This document shows, piece after piece, positions 1,386 through 24,936 of a stretch of 32,086 bases of DNA. The stretch is from Microbacteriaceae bacterium (GTDB lineage: Bacteria > Actinomycetota > Actinomycetes > Actinomycetales > Microbacteriaceae), in the NCBI GenBank assembly GCA_025465035.1, contig JAODMH010000041.1, positions 1 through 32,086 on the forward strand. Reading direction: 5' to 3'. The stretch's first letter is position 1, and each line of letters starts with the position of its first letter. The notes beneath the pieces were generated by a model. It ran no database searches. It was not told the DNA's origin and worked only from the letters and a program-made list of their open reading frames with translations. The position numbers and the translations under genes were made by a program.

Positions 1386-2615
1386 TCACAGACCGGCGTA
1401 GACACCGAGCAGCGCCGTCGCCGTCGCCGCCCAGGTGTACCCCTCGGCGTAGTGCCGGGCCGAGCCAGACAGCCGCTCCAAACGGGCGCTATCGTCGAGC
1501 ATTTCGGCGATGGCGCGTGCCCAGACACGCGGATCGCGTGAGTCGACCAGGTGCCCTGAGACGCCGGTCGAGACCGACTCGACCAGCCCACCACCCCTGA
1601 AGGCGACGACCGGCGTGCCGCTGGCCGCCGACTCGAGCGCCACCAGCCCGAAGGTCTCGGAGTGTGACGGCACGAGGGTCACGGTCGCTGCAGCGAGGAG
1701 ATCGGCGAGGCGTTCGCGCGACAGGGCGCCGACGAAGCGGACTTCGCCGAACACCCCGAGTTGAGAGGCGATGGTGCGCAGCGATACGGCGTATTCTTCG
1801 TCCCCCGGCGTCGCCTCCCCCGCGATCACCAGCACCGGTGCCCACCCGCGCAGGGCGTGCAACTCGGCGAGCGCGCGGATCGCGAGCTCCTGGTCCTTGA
1901 GAGGCTGCACGCGCCCGACGACGGCGAGGATCGGGCGTCCTGACGCGATCGAGAGCTCGTCGCGAAGACGCGCGCCCGCGACATCCGTCCGTGCCGGTGT
2001 GAAGAGATCGACATCGACACCGGGTGGGATCACCCAGATGCGGTCAGCCGGTGCGCGAACCTCGTCGATGAGGATACCCACCTCTGCGGCGGAACCGGCG
2101 ACGATCGCGCTCGCCTGGTTGGCGAGGTACATCTCGGTGCGGACGCGCTGTTCCGGCTCCGGTGCCTGTCCGAGCGCGAGCGCGCCATTCTTCATGGCAG
2201 CGACGGTGTGGAAACTCTGCACGAAGGGCAGCCCCAGTTCGAGAGCGACCGGCAGCGTCGCGAGTCCGCTCAACCAGTAGTGGGCGTGGATGAGGCCGTA
2301 GCGCGGCTGCAGACGGCCGGCGAGATTCGCCACGGCTTCGCCGAACTCGTCGGCGACCTCGAGCAGACGCCCCTTCTCGACGGCACCGGCCGGACCGGCC
2401 GCGAGTTCGTGCAGGGTCACCCCCTCGCTCAGTTCGATGACGCTCGGGGCGCCGGTGGCCCGGGTCAGCAGGTCGACCTCCACCCCCCGCTCGGCAACCT
2501 GCGATGCGATCGACAGCAGTGAGACGTTCATCCCGCCGGAATCGCCCATGCCGGGCGGGGCGATGGGCGAGGTGTGCATGGACACCATCGCCACTCGCTC
2601 CAACGGGCTCACCAT
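1386..2615 (-). CDS. GT4-family glycosyltransferase, MshA-like
   Basis: A 409-residue retaining glycosyltransferase of the GT-B fold. The N-terminal RVAMVSMHTSPIAPPG followed by GDSGGMNV matches the sugar-acceptor loop of MshA (D-inositol-3-phosphate N-acetylglucosaminyltransferase, first step of mycothiol synthesis) and related sucrose-phosphate-synthase-like enzymes. The C-terminal half has VIPPGVD, a VVGR-QPLKD nucleotide-binding region, and the Ex7E motif in SETFGLVALESAASGTPVV, which binds the nucleotide-sugar donor. The ORF track begins 60 codons earlier (2795), but that extension is arginine-rich and unlike the family. I chose ATG 2615 because homology starts there and a TACAGT hexamer lies exactly 6 bp upstream, which suits a leaderless mRNA. 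MshA itself is the nearest named relative, but other GT4 enzymes in actinobacteria share these motifs, so I give no symbol. Confidence 0.87.
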   Translation of the reverse strand: MVSPLERVAMVSMHTSPIAPPGMGDSGGMNVSLLSIASQVAERGVEVDLLTRATGAPSVIELSEGVTLHELAAGPAGAVEKGRLLEVADEFGEAVANLAGRLQPRYGLIHAHYWLSGLATLPVALELGLPFVQSFHTVAAMKNGALALGQAPEPEQRVRTEMYLANQASAIVAGSAAEVGILIDEVRAPADRIWVIPPGVDVDLFTPARTDVAGARLRDELSIASGRPILAVVGRVQPLKDQELAIRALAELHALRGWAPVLVIAGEATPGDEEYAVSLRTIASQLGVFGEVRFVGALSRERLADLLAAATVTLVPSHSETFGLVALESAASGTPVVAFRGGGLVESVSTGVSGHLVDSRDPRVWARAIAEMLDDSARLERLSGSARHYAEGYTWAATATALLGVYAGL

Positions 2616-2627
2616 GCAGACACTGTA
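2616..2627 (-). promoter_or_regulatory. Candidate -10 element for leaderless glycosyltransferase mRNA
   Basis: On the minus strand TACAGT sits exactly 6 bp before the ATG at 2615, placing a likely transcription start on the A of the start codon. There is no Shine-Dalgarno sequence upstream, and no convincing -35. Confidence 0.5.
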
Positions 2628-2719
2628 TTGGTATATGCCCCGCTGCGGCTGAGGGCCTTCCCACGGCCAGAAGTGATACAAATACGACATGTCCGCTGAA
2701 TCGTGCTCTGCCGTCGAGC

Positions 2720-2763
2720 GGCGCACGCGGCGATGCGTGCGCCGGGGCGCCGCGGTCCCCGGC
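2720..2763. other. Two overlapping GC-rich hairpins in the divergent gap
   Basis: The 231-bp gap between the divergent glycosyltransferase and dehydrogenase genes holds no supported gene. It contains GGCGCACGC/GCGTGCGCC (9-bp perfect stem, 6-nt loop, 2720-2743), overlapping GCCGGGG/CCCCGGC (7-bp stem, 9-nt loop, 2741-2763). They share the GCC at 2741-2743 and cannot both form. This may be an attenuator or simply structured GC-rich DNA. Confidence 0.4.
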
Positions 2764-2846
2764 CGACGCCGCGCACAGCTCTCGGCCCCGCTCACGTGGT
2801 TGAATCGCTTCGAGGTAGAGGCAGGACGAGAGAATGGCGGCTACGG

Positions 2847-3689
2847 ATGACCGTGGGCAATCGGGATCTTGATGGCGCAACGATCGTCATCACGGGAGCG
2901 AGTTCCGGCATCGGGCGGGCCGCCGCCACCGCCCTCGCCGATCGCGGCGCGGAGATCGCGGTCGTCGGCCGCAACCCGGAGCGTACGAACGCCGTGGCAG
3001 CGCAGGTGGGCGGCAGGATGTTCGTCGCCGACTATGACCGCCTCGACGACGTACGACACCTGGCTGATGCCCTGCTCGCCGTGTACGACCACATCGACGT
3101 CCTCGCCAACAACGCCGGCGGCCTCGTCAGCAGGCGTGGCCTGTCGGTCGACGGACACGAGCGCACCTTCCAGCACAACCACCTCGCCCCCTTTCTGCTG
3201 ACCAACCTGCTGCTCCCGCGTCTCGCCGTCGGCGGCGGTCGGGTGATCTCGACGGCGAGCGCCGCCAACCTGTTCGGGCGCCTCGACCTCGACGACCTGG
3301 ACGGGAAGAAGCGCCGCTATGCGGGCGGCTGGCGCGCATACGGCACGAGCAAGCTCGAAACGATCCTGTTCATCGAGGAGCTGGCCAGACGCATGGCCGG
3401 AACCGGTGTCGACGCCTTCGCCTTCCATCCCGGGTTGGTGACCACCGGCTTCGGCGCCGATTCCGCACTCCTCAGGTTCGGTCAGTTCGTGAGTCGCGGC
3501 AGTCTGGGGCTCAGCCCAGAGCAGGGCGCCGCGCCGCTCATCCATCTCGCATCGGTCGAGGATGTCGCGGCCCCCAGTGGCACCTACTTCGACGGCCTCA
3601 CGCCGAACGGGCGGACGCTCGCCGTCGCCCATGACGAGGACATCGCCGATAGATTGTGGAGGAAGAGCGCCGAACTGGTCGGACTCTGA
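2847..3689 (+). CDS. Short-chain dehydrogenase/reductase, first of a tandem pair
   Basis: A 280-residue Rossmann-fold SDR. It has the cofactor motif TGASSGIG near residue 15, then VVGRNP after the second strand, where the Arg suggests NADP(H). NNAGG follows, with the catalytic Ser in ISTASA and YGTSK as the Tyr-x3-Lys active site. The layout resembles retinol-dehydrogenase/WWOX-like SDRs, which often act on hydrophobic alcohols or carbonyls; the substrate is unknown. The ORF track starts at 2703, but the first 48 codons are arginine/proline-rich noise and homology starts at MTVGNRDLDG, so I take ATG 2847. The upstream ribosome site is weak. The gene is followed after 14 bp by a paralogue with the same length and motifs, indicating tandem duplication and co-transcription. 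Confidence 0.88.
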   Translation: MTVGNRDLDGATIVITGASSGIGRAAATALADRGAEIAVVGRNPERTNAVAAQVGGRMFVADYDRLDDVRHLADALLAVYDHIDVLANNAGGLVSRRGLSVDGHERTFQHNHLAPFLLTNLLLPRLAVGGGRVISTASAANLFGRLDLDDLDGKKRRYAGGWRAYGTSKLETILFIEELARRMAGTGVDAFAFHPGLVTTGFGADSALLRFGQFVSRGSLGLSPEQGAAPLIHLASVEDVAAPSGTYFDGLTPNGRTLAVAHDEDIADRLWRKSAELVGL

Positions 3690-3703
3690 AAAGGATTTCG
3701 CAG

Positions 3704-4537
3704 GTGAGCGGCAGTCTCGACGGCGTCTCGATCGTCGTCACCGGCGCGAGCTCCGGGCTCGGTCGAGCGGCGGTCGTCGAGTTGGCGCGCCGCGGGGCCT
3801 CGATCGCCGTGGTCGGTCGCAACCCCGACCGCACCGAGGAGGTCGCACGGCTCGTGGACGGCACCGCCTTCGTTGCCGACTTCGATCATCTCGACGAGGT
3901 GCGCGAACTCGCGGATGCCCTGCTCTCGCATTTCGATCGCATCGACGTCCTCGCCAACAACGCCGGCGGCCTCATCGGTAAGCGGGAAATGACGGACGAC
4001 GGTTTCGAGCGCACCTTCCAGTCGAACCACCTCGCGCCCTTCCTGCTCACCAGCCTCTTGCTGCCGCGGATCACCGAGAGCCACGGCCGCGTGCTGTCGA
4101 CCGCAAGCAACTCCAACCTCATCGCCCGGCTCGACCTGAACGATCTGGGCTTCGAGCACCTCCCATGGCGAGGCGGATGGCGCGCCTACGGTACGACGAA
4201 GCTGGAGACGATCCTCTTCATCCGTGAACTCGCTCGAAGGACCGCGGGCACCGGAGTCACCGCCTACTCGTTTCACCCGGGCTACGTGGCATCCAATTTC
4301 GGGGCAAACATCCCGATCATGAATTTCGCGCAGTTCATCAGCGCCGGCAATCTCGGTCTCAGCCCGGAACAGGGCGCTGAGCCACTGGTGTTCCTGGCGT
4401 CGACCGCGGACGTCGGGGCCGAGAGCGGTGCCTACTTCAGCCGCGAGCATCCGCACGGGCGCACCAAGAGGCTCGCGGACAGCGAGGCCACCGCGAAGGC
4501 GCTCTGGGAGAAAAGCGTGGAATTGCTCGGCCTCTAG
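3704..4537 (+). CDS. Short-chain dehydrogenase/reductase, second of a tandem pair
   Basis: A 277-residue SDR highly similar to the gene just upstream, about two thirds identical by eye over the N-terminal half. Motifs in order: TGASSGLG, VVGRNPDRT, NNAGG, a catalytic Ser in LSTASN, and YGTTK. The ORF track begins at 3656 inside the previous gene. I prefer GTG 3704 because an AAAGGA Shine-Dalgarno sequence lies about 9 bp upstream and the protein then aligns from its first residues with its neighbour (SGSLDGVSIVVTG versus NRDLDGATIVITG). Differences cluster after the catalytic site and at the C-terminus, where substrate is bound in this family, so the two copies may have diverged in substrate. 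This is inference; neither substrate is known. Confidence 0.88.
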   Translation: MSGSLDGVSIVVTGASSGLGRAAVVELARRGASIAVVGRNPDRTEEVARLVDGTAFVADFDHLDEVRELADALLSHFDRIDVLANNAGGLIGKREMTDDGFERTFQSNHLAPFLLTSLLLPRITESHGRVLSTASNSNLIARLDLNDLGFEHLPWRGGWRAYGTTKLETILFIRELARRTAGTGVTAYSFHPGYVASNFGANIPIMNFAQFISAGNLGLSPEQGAEPLVFLASTADVGAESGAYFSREHPHGRTKRLADSEATAKALWEKSVELLGL

Positions 4538-4681
4538 TCGGAGCTGAGCGACCGCGCGGCGCCGTTGGCTGAGACGATGCTGGCACCACGCCACCGACTG
4601 CTGCTAACGGTGCCATAACAGTCCTCTCGTCCGGTCACGCAGAGAAGTAGGGTTGTGCTCATCATCGAGATGGGGGATCCC

Positions 4682-5227
4682 GTGCGACACCGACCGGCAT
4701 TCGTTGCGGGCGCGGCTCTGATCGTCGCGATCGGGATGAGCGGTTGCGTGACCCCACCGACGGTGGGGCCGTCACCGTCGGTCAGCGCCTCGCCCTCCTC
4801 CGCACCCAGCGAAAGCCCGACACCGGTCGCACTCAGCTGCGAGAACATCGTCACGCCGGCCGCATATACCGACCTGACGACGGGCGAGAATGAGTTTTCC
4901 TACGACTTCGAGACACGCATGCGCGAGGAGAACAACGATCTGGTCCGCTTCCTCGACTATGGCGGCGTCGCCTGCCAATGGGGCCATCCCAACAGCGACA
5001 CAGTCGTCGTGCTCGCCTACTCCCCGATCACGGAAGAACAGGCCGTCGCCGAACGGCAGTACCTCACGGATAAGGGGTGGAAGCAGTCCAAGCAGGCTGA
5101 CGGCAGCGATACCTGGGCGACGCCGGACCTCGAGTCGTATCTCGGGAATCAGCCGACCTATGTATTCCGCCCCGGCAATTGGCGATACGCGCTCGACGCC
5201 TCGAGTCTCCCCTACTTCACGAGCTGA
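4682..5227 (+). CDS. Small secreted lipoprotein of unknown function (intact copy)
   Basis: A 181-residue predicted lipoprotein. It has a basic N-terminus, a hydrophobic segment and a lipobox ending MSGC (Cys22), then a Ser/Pro-rich linker of about 30 residues and a globular domain with two Cys (SCENI and ACQWG) that could form a disulfide outside the membrane. It is probably anchored to the outer face of the cytoplasmic membrane. The track start at 4655 is less likely than GTG 4682, which has GGGGGA just upstream. The downstream paralogue has the same arrangement, GGGGGA then GTG, and aligns in the leader too. A TAGGGT hexamer at 4648-4653 is a possible -10. I recognise no named domain. The 143-bp gap before it contains nothing else I can support. 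Confidence 0.75.
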   Translation: MRHRPAFVAGAALIVAIGMSGCVTPPTVGPSPSVSASPSSAPSESPTPVALSCENIVTPAAYTDLTTGENEFSYDFETRMREENNDLVRFLDYGGVACQWGHPNSDTVVVLAYSPITEEQAVAERQYLTDKGWKQSKQADGSDTWATPDLESYLGNQPTYVFRPGNWRYALDASSLPYFTS

Positions 5228-5291
5228 CGCGGCAGGTCTAGCCGGAGCGGACAGATAGAAGATAGTTGCACTCACTCAAGAGGGGGAAGCC

Positions 5292-5782
5292 GTGAGGATG
5301 GTTGGAAGAAGTCTGTTTATCGTCGGCTTGCTGAGCATTTCAACGCTGGTGATGGGGTGCACAAACCATTCCCTCGTTGCAGAGTCATCGCCCTCAGCGT
5401 CGCCGTCCTCATCTTCTCAAACCGAGCCCTCATCCGTGCCGACAGATCTCGCATGCGACGATCTAGTTACCGTCGGTTCACTATCCGCAATGACTGCTGC
5501 GGGATGGATTCGCGTCGATACCTTCGAAGCAGAGGTCCGCGCCGGCGATCAGGGACTGAACAAGTTCCTCACATTTGGGGGTCTCGTCTGCAAATGGGGA
5601 GAGCCGTCAAGCGATTTCTATACGGCCCTGGCTTTACTCGATCGCAATCCAAGGATGGCGAACTCTGGACCGGTGTGGCGATCGAAGGGGCTCCATACGA
5701 CTTTGTTCCGGCCTATCTGTTTGCGCCTGGCGCATGGAAATACTCCAACAATGTGAATGCTCTTGCCGAATTTGCGTTCTAG
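5292..5782 (+). pseudogene. Frameshifted paralogue of the upstream lipoprotein gene
   Basis: The GTG at 5292 with GGGGGA upstream opens a reading frame whose signal peptide (lipobox LVMGC, Cys23), Ser-rich linker, DLACDDLVT and LVCKWGEPSSD match the intact copy at 4682-5227. After about base 5630 that frame loses similarity and stops at 5756. Similarity resumes in the -1/+2 frame with GFTRSQSKDGELW and YLFAPGAWKYSNN, ending at TAG 5782. These match GWKQSKQADGSDTW and YVFRPGNWRYALD in the intact protein. Between the two blocks about 20 codons present in the intact copy are absent, so an internal deletion of roughly 60 bp, not a multiple of three, explains both shortening and frameshift. The alternative is two short ORFs (5292-5756 and 5357-5782), neither complete. 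It is likely non-functional unless both frames are joined by slippage, for which I see no slippery motif. Confidence 0.75.
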
Positions 5783-18057: not shown

Positions 18058-19386
18058 ATGAGTGACGCCGCTGCAACCTGGAAGTTCGAAACCAAGCAGA
18101 TCCATTCCGGCGCTGCTCCCGATCCCGTCACCAACGCCCGCGCGACCCCGATCTACCAGACGACGTCGTACGTGTTCAACAGCGCCGACCACGCCAAGAA
18201 TCTCTTCGCGCTCGCCGAATTCGGCAACATCTACACTCGCATCCAGAACCCGACCCAGAACGTCGTCGAGGAACGGGTCGCAGCGCTCGAAGGCGGGACG
18301 GCGGCACTGCTGGTCTCCTCCGGCCAGGCCGCAGAGACCTTCGCCGTGCTCAACATCGCGCAGGCGGGCGATCACATTGTGTCGTCCTCATCCATCTACG
18401 GTGGCACATACAACCTGTTCAAGTACACGCTCGCGAAGCTCGGCATCGAGACCACCTTCGTCGAGAACCAGGATGACGCCGACGAGTGGGCACGCGCCGT
18501 GCGCCCCAACACCAAGCTGTTCTTCGCCGAGACCATCGGTAATCCGAAGATCAACATCCTCGACATCAAGCTCGTCTCCGATGTCGCGCACCGGAACGGC
18601 GTTCCGCTCATCGTCGATAACACGATCGCGACGCCGTACCTGATCCGTCCCTTCGAGCACGGTGCAGACATCATCGTGCACTCCGCCACGAAGTTCCTCG
18701 GCGGCCACGGCACGATCATCGGCGGCGTCATCGTCGACGGTGGCAAGTTCGAGTGGAGCAAGAACGTCGAGAAGTTCCCCGGCCTCACCGAGCCGGATCC
18801 CTCGTACCATGGCGCGAGCTACACCACAGTGCTCGGCGACGGCATCGCCTACATCATCAAGGCCCGTGTACAACTTCTGCGCGACCTCGGTTCGGCGATC
18901 GCCCCCGCGAGCGCGTGGCAGCTCATCCAGGGCATCGAGACGTTGAGCCTCCGCATCGAACGCCACGTGCAGAACGCCCAGGCGGTCGCCGAATGGCTCG
19001 ACGGCCACGACGACGTTGCCTCGGTCAACTACTCAGGGCTGCCATCGAGCCCGTGGTACGCGAAGGCCAACGAGTACGCGCCCAAGGGCGTCGGCGCGGT
19101 GCTGTCCTTCGAGCTGAAGGGTGGGGTCGACGCTGGGCGTGCCCTCGTCAACAGCGTGAAGCTGTTCAGCCACCTGGCCAACATCGGCGACGTTCGCAGC
19201 CTCATCATCCACCCGGCGTCGACCACGCACTCGCAGCTCACGCCAGAGCAGCAGCTCACCTCCGGTGTCACGCCGGGGCTGGTTCGCCTCTCGGTCGGAC
19301 TCGAGAACATCGACGACATCCTCGCCGACCTCAGCTCCGGCTTCGCGGCGGCCCGCGAGGTCACGAAGGCCGCACAGAACGCGTAA
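18058..19386 (+). CDS. metY: O-acetylhomoserine sulfhydrylase (MetY)
   Basis: A 442-residue PLP enzyme of the Cys/Met metabolism family. It forms homocysteine from O-acetylhomoserine and sulfide in methionine synthesis. The PLP lysine is Lys212 in VHSATKFLGGHGT. The N-terminal ATPIYQTTSYVF, YTRIQNPT and ALEGG blocks are characteristic. The length and the insertion around PGLTEPDPSYHG distinguish MetY from cystathionine gamma-synthase, which is about 380-400 residues. AAGGAG precedes the ATG by 8 bp, so unlike many neighbours this gene uses a normal leader. metX follows on the same strand, 178 bp away, with a palindromic repeat between. Together the two make homocysteine by direct sulfhydrylation. 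Confidence 0.95.
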   Translation: MSDAAATWKFETKQIHSGAAPDPVTNARATPIYQTTSYVFNSADHAKNLFALAEFGNIYTRIQNPTQNVVEERVAALEGGTAALLVSSGQAAETFAVLNIAQAGDHIVSSSSIYGGTYNLFKYTLAKLGIETTFVENQDDADEWARAVRPNTKLFFAETIGNPKINILDIKLVSDVAHRNGVPLIVDNTIATPYLIRPFEHGADIIVHSATKFLGGHGTIIGGVIVDGGKFEWSKNVEKFPGLTEPDPSYHGASYTTVLGDGIAYIIKARVQLLRDLGSAIAPASAWQLIQGIETLSLRIERHVQNAQAVAEWLDGHDDVASVNYSGLPSSPWYAKANEYAPKGVGAVLSFELKGGVDAGRALVNSVKLFSHLANIGDVRSLIIHPASTTHSQLTPEQQLTSGVTPGLVRLSVGLENIDDILADLSSGFAAAREVTKAAQNA

Positions 19387-19397
19387 TCACACCTAGT

Positions 19398-19475
19398 GGG
19401 TTGAGTGGCGAGTGGATCTAGATCCTGGAACGCACACCGGGTCTCGATACGGGCGTTGAGCGCGCCACTCAACCC
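19398..19475. repeat. Palindromic repeat between metY and metX
   Basis: Perfect 13-bp arms GGGTTGAGTGGCG and CGCCACTCAACCC, 52 bp apart. Inside, GGGTCTCGATACG followed later by ACTCAACCC resembles the GGTTTCGATACG...ACTCGACC intergenic repeats I remember from Microbacteriaceae genomes (recollection, not checked). It could end metY transcripts. Confidence 0.7.
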
Positions 19476-19564
19476 TGCACCACTCGACCCCTGGGCGGCG
19501 CGCGAGACGCGACTCGCGTAACAATGGCGCCCGGTGCACCCGCGCTTGGGATACTTGCCTAGAG

Positions 19565-20770
19565 ATGGATTGGCAGACACCCGAGGACACGGTCCCGTCG
19601 AGCTTCGTTACGGAGGCGAACGCGCGGGCCATCGTCGGCAAACCCTCTGCGACAGGGGCCTGGCGAGAAGGCGACTATCCCGGCGATCGGCTCTTCGTGT
19701 CGATCGGCCAGCAGCAACTCGAACGTGGCGGGATGCTCCCGTCCGTGCGCATCGCCTACGAGACCTGGGGCGAGCTCGACGCCGACGGTGGCAACGCGAT
19801 CCTGGTGCTGCACGCCCTCACCGGCGACAGCCATCTCATCGGAGCCCCGGGACCGGGGCATCCGACTGCCGGCTGGTGGTCTGGCATCATCGGCCCGGGG
19901 AAGTACATCGACACTGATCGCTGGTTCGTCGTCGCCCCGAACATGCTCGGCGGATGCCAGGGCACCACGGGTCCGGCATCACTCGCGCCCGACGGCCGGG
20001 AGTGGGGCGCACGCTTCCCCTATCTGACCATTCGCGACCAGGTCGCGACGCAGGTCGCCTTCTCCGACGCCATCGGCATCTCGAGCTGGGCGGCCGTGAT
20101 CGGTGGCTCGATGGGTGGGATGCAGTCCCTCGAGTGGGCCATCGGGTATCCGGATCGCCTCGAACGCGTCGCCATCATCGCCTCGCCATCCATCAGCAAC
20201 GCCGACCAGATCGCCCTGAATTCCGTGCAGATCGAGGCGATCCACATGGATCCGCAGTTCGCTGACGGCGACTACTACGAGGCGGCGGACGGCGAGGGCC
20301 CGTACCGCGGGCTTTCCCTCGCCCGACGGATGGCGCTGCTCAACTACCGCTCACCCACGGAGTTGAACGACCGCTTCGAACGCAGCTGGCAGAGCAGCAT
20401 CAGCCCGCTCGGAGCCTCTGGCAGGTTCGCCGTCGAAAGCTACCTCGACTTCCATGGCAACAAATTCACCCGCCGCTTCGACGCCAACAGCTATGTGGTG
20501 CTCGCCCAGGCCATGAATTCTCACGACATCGGCCGGGACCGCGGAGGCGTCGCGGCGGCCCTCTCCCTGGTCACCGCGAAGAGCCTGGTGCTGGGAATCG
20601 ACAGCGACCGCCTCTTTCCGGTGTCCCAGCAGGTGGCGATCGCGAACCGCCTCGACGGCAACATCGACGGCGGCGAGGCCGTCGTCATCCACTCGGAGTT
20701 CGGTCACGACGGATTCCTCATCGAGGACGACCTCGTGGGTCCTCAGCTCGCCAGGCTTCTCAGTTCGTAA
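19565..20770 (+). CDS. metX: Homoserine O-acetyltransferase (MetX)
   Basis: A 401-residue alpha/beta-hydrolase-fold enzyme that activates homoserine with acetyl-CoA, the first step of methionine synthesis. Markers in order: YETWGELDADGGNAILVLHALTGDSH in parts (oxyanion strand), GGCQGTTGP, nucleophile Ser182 in GGSMGGMQSLEW, the catalytic Asp in GIDSDRLFP and His in FGHDGFL. The acyl-CoA preference (acetyl versus succinyl) is assumed from the partner MetY. ATG 19565 has GATACT 9 bp upstream and no clear Shine-Dalgarno sequence, so it may have its own promoter with a very short leader. The product feeds the MetY reaction. Confidence 0.95.
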   Translation: MDWQTPEDTVPSSFVTEANARAIVGKPSATGAWREGDYPGDRLFVSIGQQQLERGGMLPSVRIAYETWGELDADGGNAILVLHALTGDSHLIGAPGPGHPTAGWWSGIIGPGKYIDTDRWFVVAPNMLGGCQGTTGPASLAPDGREWGARFPYLTIRDQVATQVAFSDAIGISSWAAVIGGSMGGMQSLEWAIGYPDRLERVAIIASPSISNADQIALNSVQIEAIHMDPQFADGDYYEAADGEGPYRGLSLARRMALLNYRSPTELNDRFERSWQSSISPLGASGRFAVESYLDFHGNKFTRRFDANSYVVLAQAMNSHDIGRDRGGVAAALSLVTAKSLVLGIDSDRLFPVSQQVAIANRLDGNIDGGEAVVIHSEFGHDGFLIEDDLVGPQLARLLSS

Positions 20771-20864: not shown

Positions 20865-21533
20865 GTGACTGCCACGACCAGACAGGCGCGCCCGAGCGCC
20901 ATCCGCGTTGCGATTATCGACGATCACCAGCTCGTCATCGATGGAATCGTTGCGCACCTCTCCGCGCGTCGAAACGGTATCGACGTGGTCATCGGCGAAT
21001 CCACCTGGATCGGGTTGCTCTCCCATAGCGAGTTCCCGGTCGACGTCGCGGTACTCGACCTCAACCTCGACGACAGCATCGCCATCGGCACCAAGGTCAG
21101 GGCGCTCAATGCCGCCGGCACCCGCACCATCGTGATGAGCAGGCATGCCGACCCATCTTCCATTCAGGGAGCGCTGAAGGCGGGGGCCCTCGGCTTCGTG
21201 CCGAAGACGGAGCCCGCCGACGAGCTGGTGCGGGCGATCCAATCGGCTGCGATGGGGAAACTGTATGAGAACGGCCCCCTCATCCGCGCCATCTCCGGAA
21301 TCACGACCTCGGCGGATCCGGGCCTCGGCAAGCAGGAACTCCGGGCGATGGTCCTCTACGCCTCTGGCCTTTCGATTCGAGAGGTCGCCCACGACATGGG
21401 GACAACTGACGAGACGGTGAAGTCCTACATCAAGCGCGGCCGTCGCAAGTACCGGCAGATCGGCGTCGACCTCGGGACCAAGATCCTGCTGCGCCGACAC
21501 GGCATCCGTGAGGGCTGGGTGACGCCGGAATGA
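20865..21533 (+). CDS. Response regulator 1, NarL/FixJ-like with LuxR-type HTH
   Basis: A 222-residue response regulator. The receiver domain (about 1-130) has all signature residues: Asp19/Asp20 in IIDDHQ, phosphoacceptor Asp65 in VLDLNL, Ser92 in IVMSRHAD and Lys114 in FVPKTEP. The C-terminal HTH (about 155-215) reads LSIREVAHDMGTTDETVKSYIKRGRRKYRQIG and shares VKSYIKR-R-KYR--G-D-GTK with response regulator 2 at 24.3 kb. The common HPEFPVDV/HSEFPVDV block ahead of the phospho-Asp also marks them as paralogues. GTG 20865 has GGGGGGACAAG just upstream. A strong terminator follows, so it is a separate transcription unit from the kinase genes, though clearly part of the same module. Confidence 0.93.
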   Translation: MTATTRQARPSAIRVAIIDDHQLVIDGIVAHLSARRNGIDVVIGESTWIGLLSHSEFPVDVAVLDLNLDDSIAIGTKVRALNAAGTRTIVMSRHADPSSIQGALKAGALGFVPKTEPADELVRAIQSAAMGKLYENGPLIRAISGITTSADPGLGKQELRAMVLYASGLSIREVAHDMGTTDETVKSYIKRGRRKYRQIGVDLGTKILLRRHGIREGWVTPE

Positions 21534-21543
21534 GGCGTTTGCT

Positions 21544-21576
21544 AGAGGGCCACAGCACTGCCGTGGCCCTCTTAAC
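21544..21576 (+). terminator. Terminator after response regulator 1
   Basis: AGAGGGCCAC and GTGGCCCTCT form a 10-bp perfect stem with a 9-nt loop, 10 bp after the stop, followed by TTAA rather than a long T-run. Confidence 0.75.
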
Positions 21577-21788
21577 ACAACCCCCCGGTTGACGCGGTAC
21601 GGAACGTACCTGCCCGGCGCCCACATTCGGGTGATGGCGCCGATCCGGATCCGAGGCTAGGTTCCTCGTCTCCGAGTGAGTGTGGCGACCCTCAGGCCGT
21701 GAGCCCCTCTTACTTACTCACGTCGACTGTACCGCTAAGGCTCCGCGGAATCGCAGCAGTGTTGCACCCCCACTTAAGGTCACAGTGT
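21577..21788 (+). other. Structured upstream region of the histidine kinase
   Basis: A non-coding stretch of 212 bp with several short palindromes. These are GGTACG-gaa-CGTACC (21596-21610), GATCCGGATC, and CGAGG/CCTCG around TAGGTT (21652-21668). TAGGTT is a possible -10 for a leader of about 120 nt. A second candidate is TAAGGT (21775-21780), 8 bp before GTG 21789. The palindromes look like regulator sites, but I cannot assign them. Confidence 0.35.
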
Positions 21789-22967
21789 GTGACTATTACT
21801 AACGTGGAACTCATCGCCAAAGAGCGCGATCGACTTCTTCAGCGCTCCACGCGCGCAATCGGACTGGGTTCGACGATAATCGCTCTTGCCTGTTTCAGCG
21901 TTCCGGGGGTGCTGAACTCGACGACGTATCTCGCAGCCCTGCCTCTCTTCGTCGTGCTCGCGTTCAGCCTCTTCCGTGTCGGCATCAACCGGTCCCTGGT
22001 CTGGGTCCTTCTGGGCGTCGCCGCCGGCCTCGGCATCCTCGTGGTCGTCCAGGTGCCCGTCGGCGGCGCACCGGGACCCGCGCTCGGTGCCGCCCTGGTT
22101 CCACTGGCGGCCGGAGCGATGGGTTCCTTCGCCATCGTGCTGACCACCACACCGTCCCGCGTGGCGATCCTCGTGGTCGCGTTCCTCGCGACGTTGGTCC
22201 TCACCGAGTTCGCCGTGCCTGGGCCCGCCATCGTGTCCGTGCGCGGCGGCGCCGTGGTACTCGGCTGGGTCCTGGCCGCGGTCGTCGGCTACTGGTTGTC
22301 GGCGAGCATCCCCCGCGCGGCGAGGCGCATCTACAGCATCGGACGCGCCCATCGCGCGGAACGGCAGGCGAGCGAGACCGAGGCCCAACGCCGCCAGGGT
22401 GCCCGCCTGCTCCACGACACGGTGCTCGCGACCCTCACCCTCCTTGCGCACTCCGGCGTCGGCGTCGCGGCGTCGGCCATGCAACAGCAGGCCGGCGAGG
22501 ATGCCCGGCTCCTCAGGCAGTTGCGGCTCGGCGCGAGCCCCGTGCCGCGGTCGTCGGGGGACTATCACCTGGAGCCGGTGGAGGAGACCGCCCTCGGCAC
22601 GACGCTCGAATCGGTCAAGCAGCGTTTCGGCCGGATGGGACTCGAGGTCAGCTGGCATGGCACGGGGCAGGTGCTGCTGCCCAGCGAGGTCCTCGATGCC
22701 TTCCTGCTCGCCCTTGCCGAATGTCTGGAGAACGTGCGCCGCCATGCTGGCGTGACCGACGCGCACGTGACGATCACGGATGACGACACGACGGTACGCG
22801 CGATGGTCACGGATGCCGGGGTCGGCTTCGACCTCAAAGACATCGACGAGGCTCGGCTGGGTTTCAAGGATTCCGTGGTCGCTCGTCTCCAGGAGGTCGG
22901 CGGTAATGCCCGGCTGTTCTCCTCCCCCGGTGCCGGAACGACCGTGGTCCTCGAGGTACCGAAGTGA
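21789..22967 (+). CDS. Six-TM sensor histidine kinase, DesK/NarX-like
   Basis: A 392-residue membrane kinase. Six TM helices occupy about residues 25-175, with no large extracytoplasmic sensor, so it probably senses the membrane or a small ligand. The dimerisation/phosphoacceptor motif is ARLLHDTVLATL (His209), as in HisKA_3 kinases. The ATPase domain has an N-box LAECLENVRRHAG (Asn314), a G1 box TDAGVGF and a G2 box SSPGAGTTV, so it should be active. The track start at 21699 would add 30 residues of unlikely sequence; GTG 21789 starts near the first conserved part and has TAAGGT 8 bp upstream. The stop overlaps the GTG of the next gene by 4 bp (GTGA). Likely partners are the response regulators on either side. 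Confidence 0.88.
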   Translation: MTITNVELIAKERDRLLQRSTRAIGLGSTIIALACFSVPGVLNSTTYLAALPLFVVLAFSLFRVGINRSLVWVLLGVAAGLGILVVVQVPVGGAPGPALGAALVPLAAGAMGSFAIVLTTTPSRVAILVVAFLATLVLTEFAVPGPAIVSVRGGAVVLGWVLAAVVGYWLSASIPRAARRIYSIGRAHRAERQASETEAQRRQGARLLHDTVLATLTLLAHSGVGVAASAMQQQAGEDARLLRQLRLGASPVPRSSGDYHLEPVEETALGTTLESVKQRFGRMGLEVSWHGTGQVLLPSEVLDAFLLALAECLENVRRHAGVTDAHVTITDDDTTVRAMVTDAGVGFDLKDIDEARLGFKDSVVARLQEVGGNARLFSSPGAGTTVVLEVPK

Positions 22968-24229
22968 CCGGCGGCCCGATGAGCGACTATGCGCGCCCAG
23001 AGGAGAACACCCTCGGCGTCATCCTCGGCAAGCGCAATCGCTCCGGTGTGCCGACGACGTCGACGGCCGGAATCGCGATGCGCCGCGCCAGCGCACCCGG
23101 CGGAAGCCTCGGCACCGGATATCTCGGGGTCGGCGCGAGCGTGATCGCCTCCATCCAGGGCATCTACGGCCTTGCCTCCTTCGTGAGCCATGCCGGCGTG
23201 TATCCCAACATTCTCCCGATCGCCGCCGCCTGGCTTCTCTACGCTCTCGCGCTCGTGGGCGTTGCCGTCTCCCTCGCCACCCGCGGCGAGCGGATACCGA
23301 ACTGGCTCTTCGCCACCTTCCTGGTCGCCCTTGCCGGGGTCGTCGCGCTCGACCTCATCGCGATCTGGCCGCTGCACGACATCGGCAGCTACGCCACGGC
23401 ATCCGTATCGGCCGGATTCGGACTTCTGACGGCGCTCACCCTTCGCCGTGAACGTGAAATCCTCGGGGCCGCGATCCTGCTCGGTGTGGCGCTCAGCGTG
23501 GCCATCGTGATGACCACGCCACTCACTGCCGAGACCATCCCCGCGCAACTGCTGCTGATCGCGACATCCGTGATGCCAGCGCTCTTCGGTATCTACATCG
23601 TGCAGCGCTTCCGGCGCATCGTGCAGATCGAACTCGACCGGGTGCTCGTACAGAGCACGGTCTCCGCCCCGCGGTTCGCAGTCGGGATGCTCGCCTCCGA
23701 GGAGCTCGCCAGGCTCGACCTCGCCGCGGAGGAGCTGCTCGACTCGGTCGCGATGGGCAGGATCCGCCTGCCCCTCACCCCGAGAACGGCCTCGGTGGCC
23801 GCCTCTCTCGCGACCGAGCTCAGGCTCCACCTGATCGAGGGCAGACGCGAGACCTGGCTGTATCACGCCATCACCGAGTCGGAACAGCTCGGCAAGTCGG
23901 TAACCCTGGTCGACCGAGGCAGCCTCGCCGGCCTCCTCGGTCCCCAGCAACGTGACGGCCTGCTCGCAGCCGTCTGGCTTCTGGTCAGCGACCGCAAGGC
24001 GAATCCGACGGCCTCGCTCACGCTCGGACCGGTAACGGCGATACCCGAACCGGGTTCCAGAACCATAACGGTACCGCTCGTCATCACGACGACCTCCATT
24101 TCGCGCAATCGTGTCGACCCGGCGACCTGGGATGCCATCGGCAAGGTGGGCCGTTTCGTCGACTCGACCCTCAATTCGAGTCTGCGCGTCGAGATCGAGT
24201 GTGTAGTGAACAATCCAGCCGACCAATAG
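22964..24229 (+). CDS. Six-TM protein, apparent degenerate histidine-kinase sibling
   Basis: A 421-residue membrane protein with a 50-residue N-terminal cytoplasmic tail and six TM helices (about 52-213), then a cytoplasmic domain of about 200 residues. The layout copies the upstream kinase. Blocks can be matched: LLDSVAMGRIRLPLTPR against LLRQLRLGASPVPR, and RDGLLAAVWLLVSD against LDAFLLALAECLEN. But the phosphoacceptor His is absent, the N-box Asn becomes Asp, and no G1 or G2 box exists, so ATP binding and phosphotransfer are not expected. It overlaps the kinase gene by 4 bp and must be co-translated, suggesting a stoichiometric complex. Possible roles are a sensory heterodimer partner or a response-regulator-binding scaffold. 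The homology rests on by-eye alignment; otherwise it is a membrane protein of unknown function. Confidence 0.72.
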   Translation: MTGGPMSDYARPEENTLGVILGKRNRSGVPTTSTAGIAMRRASAPGGSLGTGYLGVGASVIASIQGIYGLASFVSHAGVYPNILPIAAAWLLYALALVGVAVSLATRGERIPNWLFATFLVALAGVVALDLIAIWPLHDIGSYATASVSAGFGLLTALTLRREREILGAAILLGVALSVAIVMTTPLTAETIPAQLLLIATSVMPALFGIYIVQRFRRIVQIELDRVLVQSTVSAPRFAVGMLASEELARLDLAAEELLDSVAMGRIRLPLTPRTASVAASLATELRLHLIEGRRETWLYHAITESEQLGKSVTLVDRGSLAGLLGPQQRDGLLAAVWLLVSDRKANPTASLTLGPVTAIPEPGSRTITVPLVITTTSISRNRVDPATWDAIGKVGRFVDSTLNSSLRVEIECVVNNPADQ

Positions 24230-24233
24230 CATG

Positions 24234-24250
24234 CTGGACAAATAGTCCAG
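24234..24250. promoter_or_regulatory. Inverted repeat ahead of response regulator 2
   Basis: CTGGAC and GTCCAG flank a 5-bp AAATA loop, immediately after the pseudokinase stop and 8 bp before the ATG of response regulator 2. It could be a small attenuator, a translation-control hairpin, or an operator. Confidence 0.4.
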
Positions 24251-24258
24251 AGAATGGA

Positions 24259-24936
24259 ATGACCGTGCCCGAAACAGATGACCCCATCCGTCTAGCCATT
24301 GTTGACGACCACAGGATGCTCCTGGGGGCACTCACCGAGTGGATTCGCAACGCCGCAAGCGACATCACCATGGTCGCCGCCCTGTCCAGCTGGCCTGAGC
24401 TGCTCATCCATCCGGAGTTCCCGGTCGACGTCGTACTGCTCGACCTCGACCTCAAAGACAACATCCCGATCTCGCTGAAGATCTCGACCCTGAAGACGAC
24501 CGGGGTGAAGACGGTACTCATGAGCACCTACTCCGAGCCCAACGTGGTACGGGAGGCCCTCGCTGCGGGCGCCCTCGGTTATCTGGTGAAGAGTGAGGAT
24601 GCCGAAATGATCGTCGAGGCCATCAGGGCGGCCTCGAAGGGCGAGTCCTACATCTCAGCCGAACTGGACCTGGCGCTCAACGCCGGCGACGTCGGCGGCT
24701 CGCCCAAGCTCAGCGCGCAGGAACGACGGGTGATGGCCCTGTACGGCGGTGGCGAGCCGGTGAAGGCCGTCGCCTATCAGCTCGGCATCTCCGAGGAGAC
24801 CGCCAAGTCGTACCTCAAGCGAATCCGCGAGAAGTATCGGGTCGCCGGGATCGATGTCGGCACCAAGGTGGCGCTCCGTAAGCGCGCGATTCAGGATGGC
24901 ATCCTCCTTTCGACGGACGCCCCGAACAGCTTCTAG
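24259..24936 (+). CDS. Response regulator 2, NarL/FixJ-like with LuxR-type HTH
   Basis: A 225-residue response regulator, paralogous to the one at 20.9 kb. Receiver signature: Asp16/Asp17 in IVDDHRM, phosphoacceptor Asp62 in LLDLDL, Ser89 in VLMSTYSEP and Lys111 in YLVKSED; all intact. The HTH region PVKAVAYQLGISEETAKSYLKRIREKYRVAG is close to NarL-type recognition helices. The track begins at 24199 inside the previous gene; ATG 24259 is chosen because the receiver begins nearby and homology with response regulator 1 starts there. GTG 24265 is an in-frame alternative. The upstream gap is 29 bp and contains a small hairpin, so it is probably in one operon with the kinase pair. Confidence 0.93.
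   Translation: MTVPETDDPIRLAIVDDHRMLLGALTEWIRNAASDITMVAALSSWPELLIHPEFPVDVVLLDLDLKDNIPISLKISTLKTTGVKTVLMSTYSEPNVVREALAAGALGYLVKSEDAEMIVEAIRAASKGESYISAELDLALNAGDVGGSPKLSAQERRVMALYGGGEPVKAVAYQLGISEETAKSYLKRIREKYRVAGIDVGTKVALRKRAIQDGILLSTDAPNSF

Follow-up and report, generated by a model that had tools for sequence, protein, structure and literature searches.

The usual description of histidine kinases is that of homodimers, with few reports of heterodimers. Among the closest described systems, FasB/FasC/FasA of group A Streptococcus has two-hybrid data that support a heterodimer in which one partner was proposed to be a pseudokinase (PMC12675982), and in AbrC1/AbrC2/AbrC3 of Streptomyces coelicolor both kinases autophosphorylate in vitro (PMC4428217). 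The pseudo-histidine kinase DivL of Caulobacter, found with CckA and DivK, steers a working kinase (PMC4211667). In Corynebacterium glutamicum an inactive kinase, a pseudokinase variant of ChrS, alters the output of the paralogous kinase HrrS; the native ChrS and HrrS kinases heterodimerise, with no significant heterodimer for truncated ChrS (PMC9491836).

We analysed a stretch of 32,086 nucleotides (the window; assembly GCA_025465035.1, contig JAODMH010000041.1) from a Microbacteriaceae bacterium, in which four genes encoding a response regulator (RR1), a histidine kinase (HK), a second membrane protein resembling a dead kinase (PSK) and a second response regulator (RR2) lie in that order on the + strand (Table 1), the layout given in the original prediction. 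As that prediction also held, no named system with this make-up was present in the searchable literature, in which FasBC, AbrC and DivL/CckA are related. No description of the PSK family or of the locus was found, subscription journals being largely outside the search scope, and nothing relevant was found on two-component systems of Microbacteriaceae. Related two-sensor and pseudokinase ideas are known, and an unnamed family of dedicated pseudokinases appears to be new.

Table 1. Positions in the window of the genes, domains, motifs and non-coding elements of the module.
Feature	Position	Strand	Evidence
RR1, accessory response regulator of NarL type, paralogous sister to RR2	20865..21533	+	Response_reg E 3e-11
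Hairpin 3' of RR1, probable terminator, weak T tract	21544..21573	+	-21.7 kcal/mol, z -4.8
Conserved element ACCCCCANTTNNGGNGNCA just 5' of HK, possible operator	21766..21784	+	20/61 loci
HK, six-TM DesK-like histidine kinase	21804..22967 (alternative start 21789)	+	HATPase_c, motifs, model, orthologues
HK phosphoacceptor His codon	22413..22415	+	invariant in 45 orthologues
HK N box ECLENVRRH	22719..22745	+	45-orthologue alignment
HK G1 box VTDAGVGF	22806..22829	+	45-orthologue alignment
HK G2 box GAGTT	22929..22943	+	45-orthologue alignment
PSK, degenerate histidine kinase (pseudokinase), six TM helices, overlaps HK by 4 bases	22964..24229	+	
PSK membrane domain, residues 51-234	23114..23665	+	AlphaFold2 model
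PSK two-helix DHp-like stem, residues 236-295, without phosphoacceptor His	23669..23848	+	model, residues
PSK GHKL-like domain, residues 296-421, ATP lid ~9 residues	23849..24226	+	model, Foldseek
PSK Asp343, aligned with HK N-box Asn	23990..23992	+	alignment
Small hairpin in PSK-RR2 gap	24231..24253	+	-9.5 kcal/mol, z -2.85
RR2, core response regulator, most conserved module protein	24259..24936	+	72-92% identity, 60 loci

Judged by its motifs, HK is very probably a working DesK-like histidine kinase. It carries a Pfam HATPase_c domain (E 1e-7, over the cut-off), and H209, D210 and T211, which form an HD motif on the DHp helix, are invariant in 45 orthologues, among which the N box, G1 and G2 are invariant or nearly so. 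No HisKA_3 match was found in Pfam up to E 1, and HK was absent from the genome-wide HisKA_3 hits, so we call it DesK-like and not a HisKA_3 member. Its best NCBIfam match was the MacS family (NF047322), at 85 bits, well short of the cut-off of 300, and its structure model matches DesK and VraS. The motifs of a complete kinase are thus all present as originally described; the residue number of the phosphoacceptor needs amending, as it is His209 when counted from the start at 21789 and His204 from the start at 21804 that the orthologues indicate.

PSK overlaps HK in the window by exactly the 4 bases first reported. It had no Pfam match, no meaningful NCBIfam match and no similarity to HK found by BLAST, as would be expected if it were an accessory membrane protein without kinase descent, in a LiaF-like role. 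We regard such an origin as very improbable given the structure predicted for it. The AlphaFold2 model is confident (pLDDT 87, pTM 0.74), with six membrane helices, two stem helices (residues 236-263 and 273-295) and a cytoplasmic domain whose order of helices and strands follows that of the HK model (stem plus GHKL), the ATP-lid stretch being reduced from about 21 residues in the HK model to 9. The best PDB matches of the model in Foldseek were LvrB, the phytochrome A kinase-related domain and AgrC (probability 0.99) and DesK (0.84), all of them histidine kinases or kinase-related; the E-values were modest (8e-3 upward, none below 0.001) and the whole-chain TM-scores low. As a control, the HK model retrieved the same structure classes at E about 1e-5.

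Profile-profile comparison points the same way. PSK against HK gave 48-62% probability depending on the alignment, the longer of which covers the membrane helices, and the pooled set gave 70% over 300 colinear columns. A related PSK group of another family matched kinases at 93% over the part reaching from the stem to G1 (unrelated controls 0.1-0.3%), which again argues against an origin outside the kinases. No match (<1%) came from comparing HK2 directly with PSK2 (from a second module, below), nor from comparing the small profiles built for HK and PSK in family f117. These two lines and the residue losses together identify PSK as a degenerate kinase by fold, with moderate support from sequence. 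No His is present in residues 236-268 of PSK and none is conserved there in the family, the Glu of the N box is Leu339, and there is no G1 or G2 box; the invariant residues include D252, E256, R287, W298, R330 and W338. A DHp-like stem and a GHKL fold without catalytic residues, as the model has them, make PSK a pseudo-histidine kinase with moderate strength. The original prediction had described a second six-TM protein lacking the His and the G boxes, and this stands; the Asp that it placed at the N-box Asn is found here (Asp343) and in only 42/61 orthologues. The two computational checks that it had proposed both lead to kinases: the structure prediction gives a GHKL fold with kinases as the closest solved structures, and HHpred-type comparison gives a kinase relation that is weak for PSK proper and stronger for its relatives.

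Two genes that we take, from reading of their sequences, to be metY and metX lie directly upstream of the module (18058-20770), metX adjoining it in the loci read, and a convergent gene 3' of the module is presumably, on the same basis, an MFS transporter. A link between the module and methionine metabolism is possible.

The three genes HK, PSK and RR2 form a fixed unit of Microbacteriaceae. Of 250 genomes sampled from the family, 175 have PSK and 176 have RR2, the same genomes but one, and each gene is present in 58 of 85 genera. In the single mismatched genome (G113) RR2 lies at a contig edge and there is no PSK elsewhere in the genome. The order metX-HK-PSK-RR2, with metY nearby, was kept in 60/60 loci read, which represent most of the PSK/RR2-bearing genera, and this answers the question of gene-order conservation raised at the outset. 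Among 80 named loci in GTDB genomes, HK was directly upstream of PSK in all 80 and RR2 directly downstream in 76, three of the exceptions being contig ends and one being locus L239. The exact 4-base overlap was kept in 51 of 55 loci measured, with starts picked nearest to the start position of the query. The pairing of HK with PSK is far beyond chance, and no PSK without a neighbouring kinase was seen in the loci read, apart from contigs ending at PSK (L274, G935). Locus L239, downstream of 7266, is the one full-length named locus without RR2 within 400 bases of PSK. Genome G146, where a PSK-like gene occurs without an RR2 orthologue, was considered as a counter-example and ruled out, as it holds a complete HK-PSK-RR triad. 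A cytoplasmic domain without kinase-like fold, or a PSK gene occurring without kinase or regulators, would have spoken against the original prediction; both were looked for and neither was found. The PSK cytoplasmic domain evolves faster than that of HK, a trait that a decaying gene on its way out would also show; with PSK kept in so many genomes, invariant residues included, decay is already contradicted by conservation and is hardly credible.

The two regulators are 41% identical, and, as claimed for them, both have intact receivers. RR2 has all the features of a NarL-type regulator (receiver DD, D, T/S and K plus a GerE-type DNA-binding domain), with receiver residues invariant in 61 copies. 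RR1 has the receiver, and of its Pfam matches GerE stays below the curated cut-off and Sigma70_r4_2 exceeds it. The two blocks reported as common to both regulators were retained with a correction to the second, which reads VKSYIKRGRRKYR in RR1 and AKSYLKRIREKYR in RR2.

RR1 forms one clade, sister to RR2, with longer branches. That two sister paralogues with intact receivers flank the same kinase, and that RR1 seems to be on its own transcript, would suit a kinase/pseudokinase pair that exists to split one signal between RR1 and RR2. The hairpin after RR1 on which a separate transcript rests is strong, its T tract is short, and a simple terminator scan did not list it; it is a probable terminator, at the position (21544) first given. 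Full-length RR1 was, however, found in only 18/60 loci and was missing or not full-length in 42/60, where HK-PSK-RR2 stays complete; it evolves faster than RR2, and its receiver residues, kept in most copies, are lost in a few. One regulator is therefore enough for the core system, and the signal split, which the original prediction had put forward as the function of the pair, does not hold as a general function; we consider it quite unlikely to be the reason for the pairing. RR1 is better described, from its distribution, as a regulator with an accessory role in some genera, for which the same HK is a plausible source of phosphoryl groups.

Co-variation was measured as partial correlation controlling for metX and metY distances. 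HK and PSK co-vary in their cytoplasmic domains more than species relatedness accounts for, with a partial r of 0.74 (0.62 with RR2 also constant); the membrane domains gave 0.58 (0.46), compared to 0.37 (0.15) for the HK cytoplasmic domain with the PSK membrane domain. Domain-matched partners would be expected to give such a pattern, which is not proof of contact; genes of a single operon can also co-vary through changes in rate that they share. Between the PSK cytoplasmic domain and RR2 the partial r is 0.62, and PSK may form homodimers. PSK could be a homodimer that shares no stem with HK and acts as a membrane sensor or regulator in its own right, contacting HK or binding the regulator in the manner of DivL, for which reuse of a dead kinase core as a regulator sensor, reading DivK~P, is documented (PMC4211667). 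That PSK partners HK is favoured by the overlap of their genes and by the tighter correlation with the HK cytoplasmic domain, and we hold a separate PSK homodimer to be rather unlikely.

We consider it probable that HK, PSK and RR2 make up an obligate signalling unit in which PSK, a dead kinase, forms with HK a membrane complex that controls RR2. PSK would be a histidine kinase that lost the phosphoacceptor and the ATP-binding machinery and kept the membrane domain, the stem and the GHKL fold. Translational coupling at the overlap would yield HK and PSK in similar amounts, and the two would assemble in the membrane, most probably via paired stems. Such a mixed complex would have one phosphoacceptor and one ATP site per HK-PSK pair, and the PSK membrane domain would serve as a second sensory domain, governing the balance between the kinase and phosphatase activities that HK has towards RR2, the presumed phosphorylation target.

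Direct reading of the intergenic DNA upstream of HK gave the element ACCCCCANTTNNGGNGNCA, and testing of the pattern against shuffles showed that 20/61 loci have it within 2 mismatches, with 0.2 expected. Its position suggests that it may be an autoregulatory site; it was not enriched genome-wide, and we therefore claim no regulon. A first word search upstream of HK was discarded, as its words seem to derive from metX, whose 3' end is conserved. The small hairpin in the PSK-RR2 gap (24231-24253) is predicted and could affect RR2 translation. An Rfam search found no RNA element.

The PSK family extends beyond this locus. The same genome contains a second module, HK2-PSK2-RR3, flanked by a radical-SAM gene and by thymidine kinase, and at least two PSK-like matches per genome were counted by eye in roughly 120/176 genomes. 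The second module was seen at locus L149 (G000:C147:14000-22000), at 2594-5629, with a similar arrangement in L150. HK-PSK-RR triads or HK-PSK pairs were also found in two further families, f111 and f117, which belong to the same order, each PSK directly after its own HK. A single-sequence PSK search outside Microbacteriaceae gave no match and the first PSK profile (A1) missed distant members, which were reached via HK paralogues and their neighbours. A candidate distant PSK in G1071 was rejected as an ordinary histidine kinase. We tentatively propose, at somewhat under even odds, an unnamed pseudo-histidine kinase family, spread over several actinobacterial families, whose members are obligate heteromeric partners of the neighbouring kinase only, live/dead pairing being a standing architecture in these bacteria, where it would otherwise count as a rare exception.

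As HK is always encoded with a degenerate kinase and a very conserved regulator, the data suggest that Microbacteriaceae sense a signal through a working kinase paired with a 'dead' one. This would indicate a conserved signalling system in Microbacteriaceae, apparently uncharacterised so far, its pseudokinase family having no Pfam or NCBIfam entry and standing beside a working kinase in about 70% of sampled genomes. Kinase/pseudokinase pairing would become a general question, testable in many cultivable species.

Compared to known systems, HK falls by motifs, NCBIfam score and fold into the broad class of the kinases of DesK/DesR and MacS/MacR, although far below the MacS cut-off. We know of no pseudokinase partner in either system. 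DivL resembles PSK as a pseudo-histidine kinase partner of a working kinase; unlike PSK, it has PAS sensors and a kinase core that can still be recognised. The genes of DivL and its kinase are not known to form a coupled pair. FasB/FasC/FasA shares with HK-PSK-RR2 two sensor-kinase-like membrane proteins and one regulator, a likeness of organisation; it belongs to a different phylum, and FasC keeps its phosphoacceptor H246, which PSK lacks (PMC12675982). AbrC1/C2/C3 is likewise actinobacterial, with two histidine kinases and one regulator, but its kinase genes are 114 bp apart without overlap and its regulator is expressed independently, whereas HK and PSK overlap (PMC4428217). The ChrS variant is a laboratory frameshift mutant, whereas PSK is a conserved gene family.
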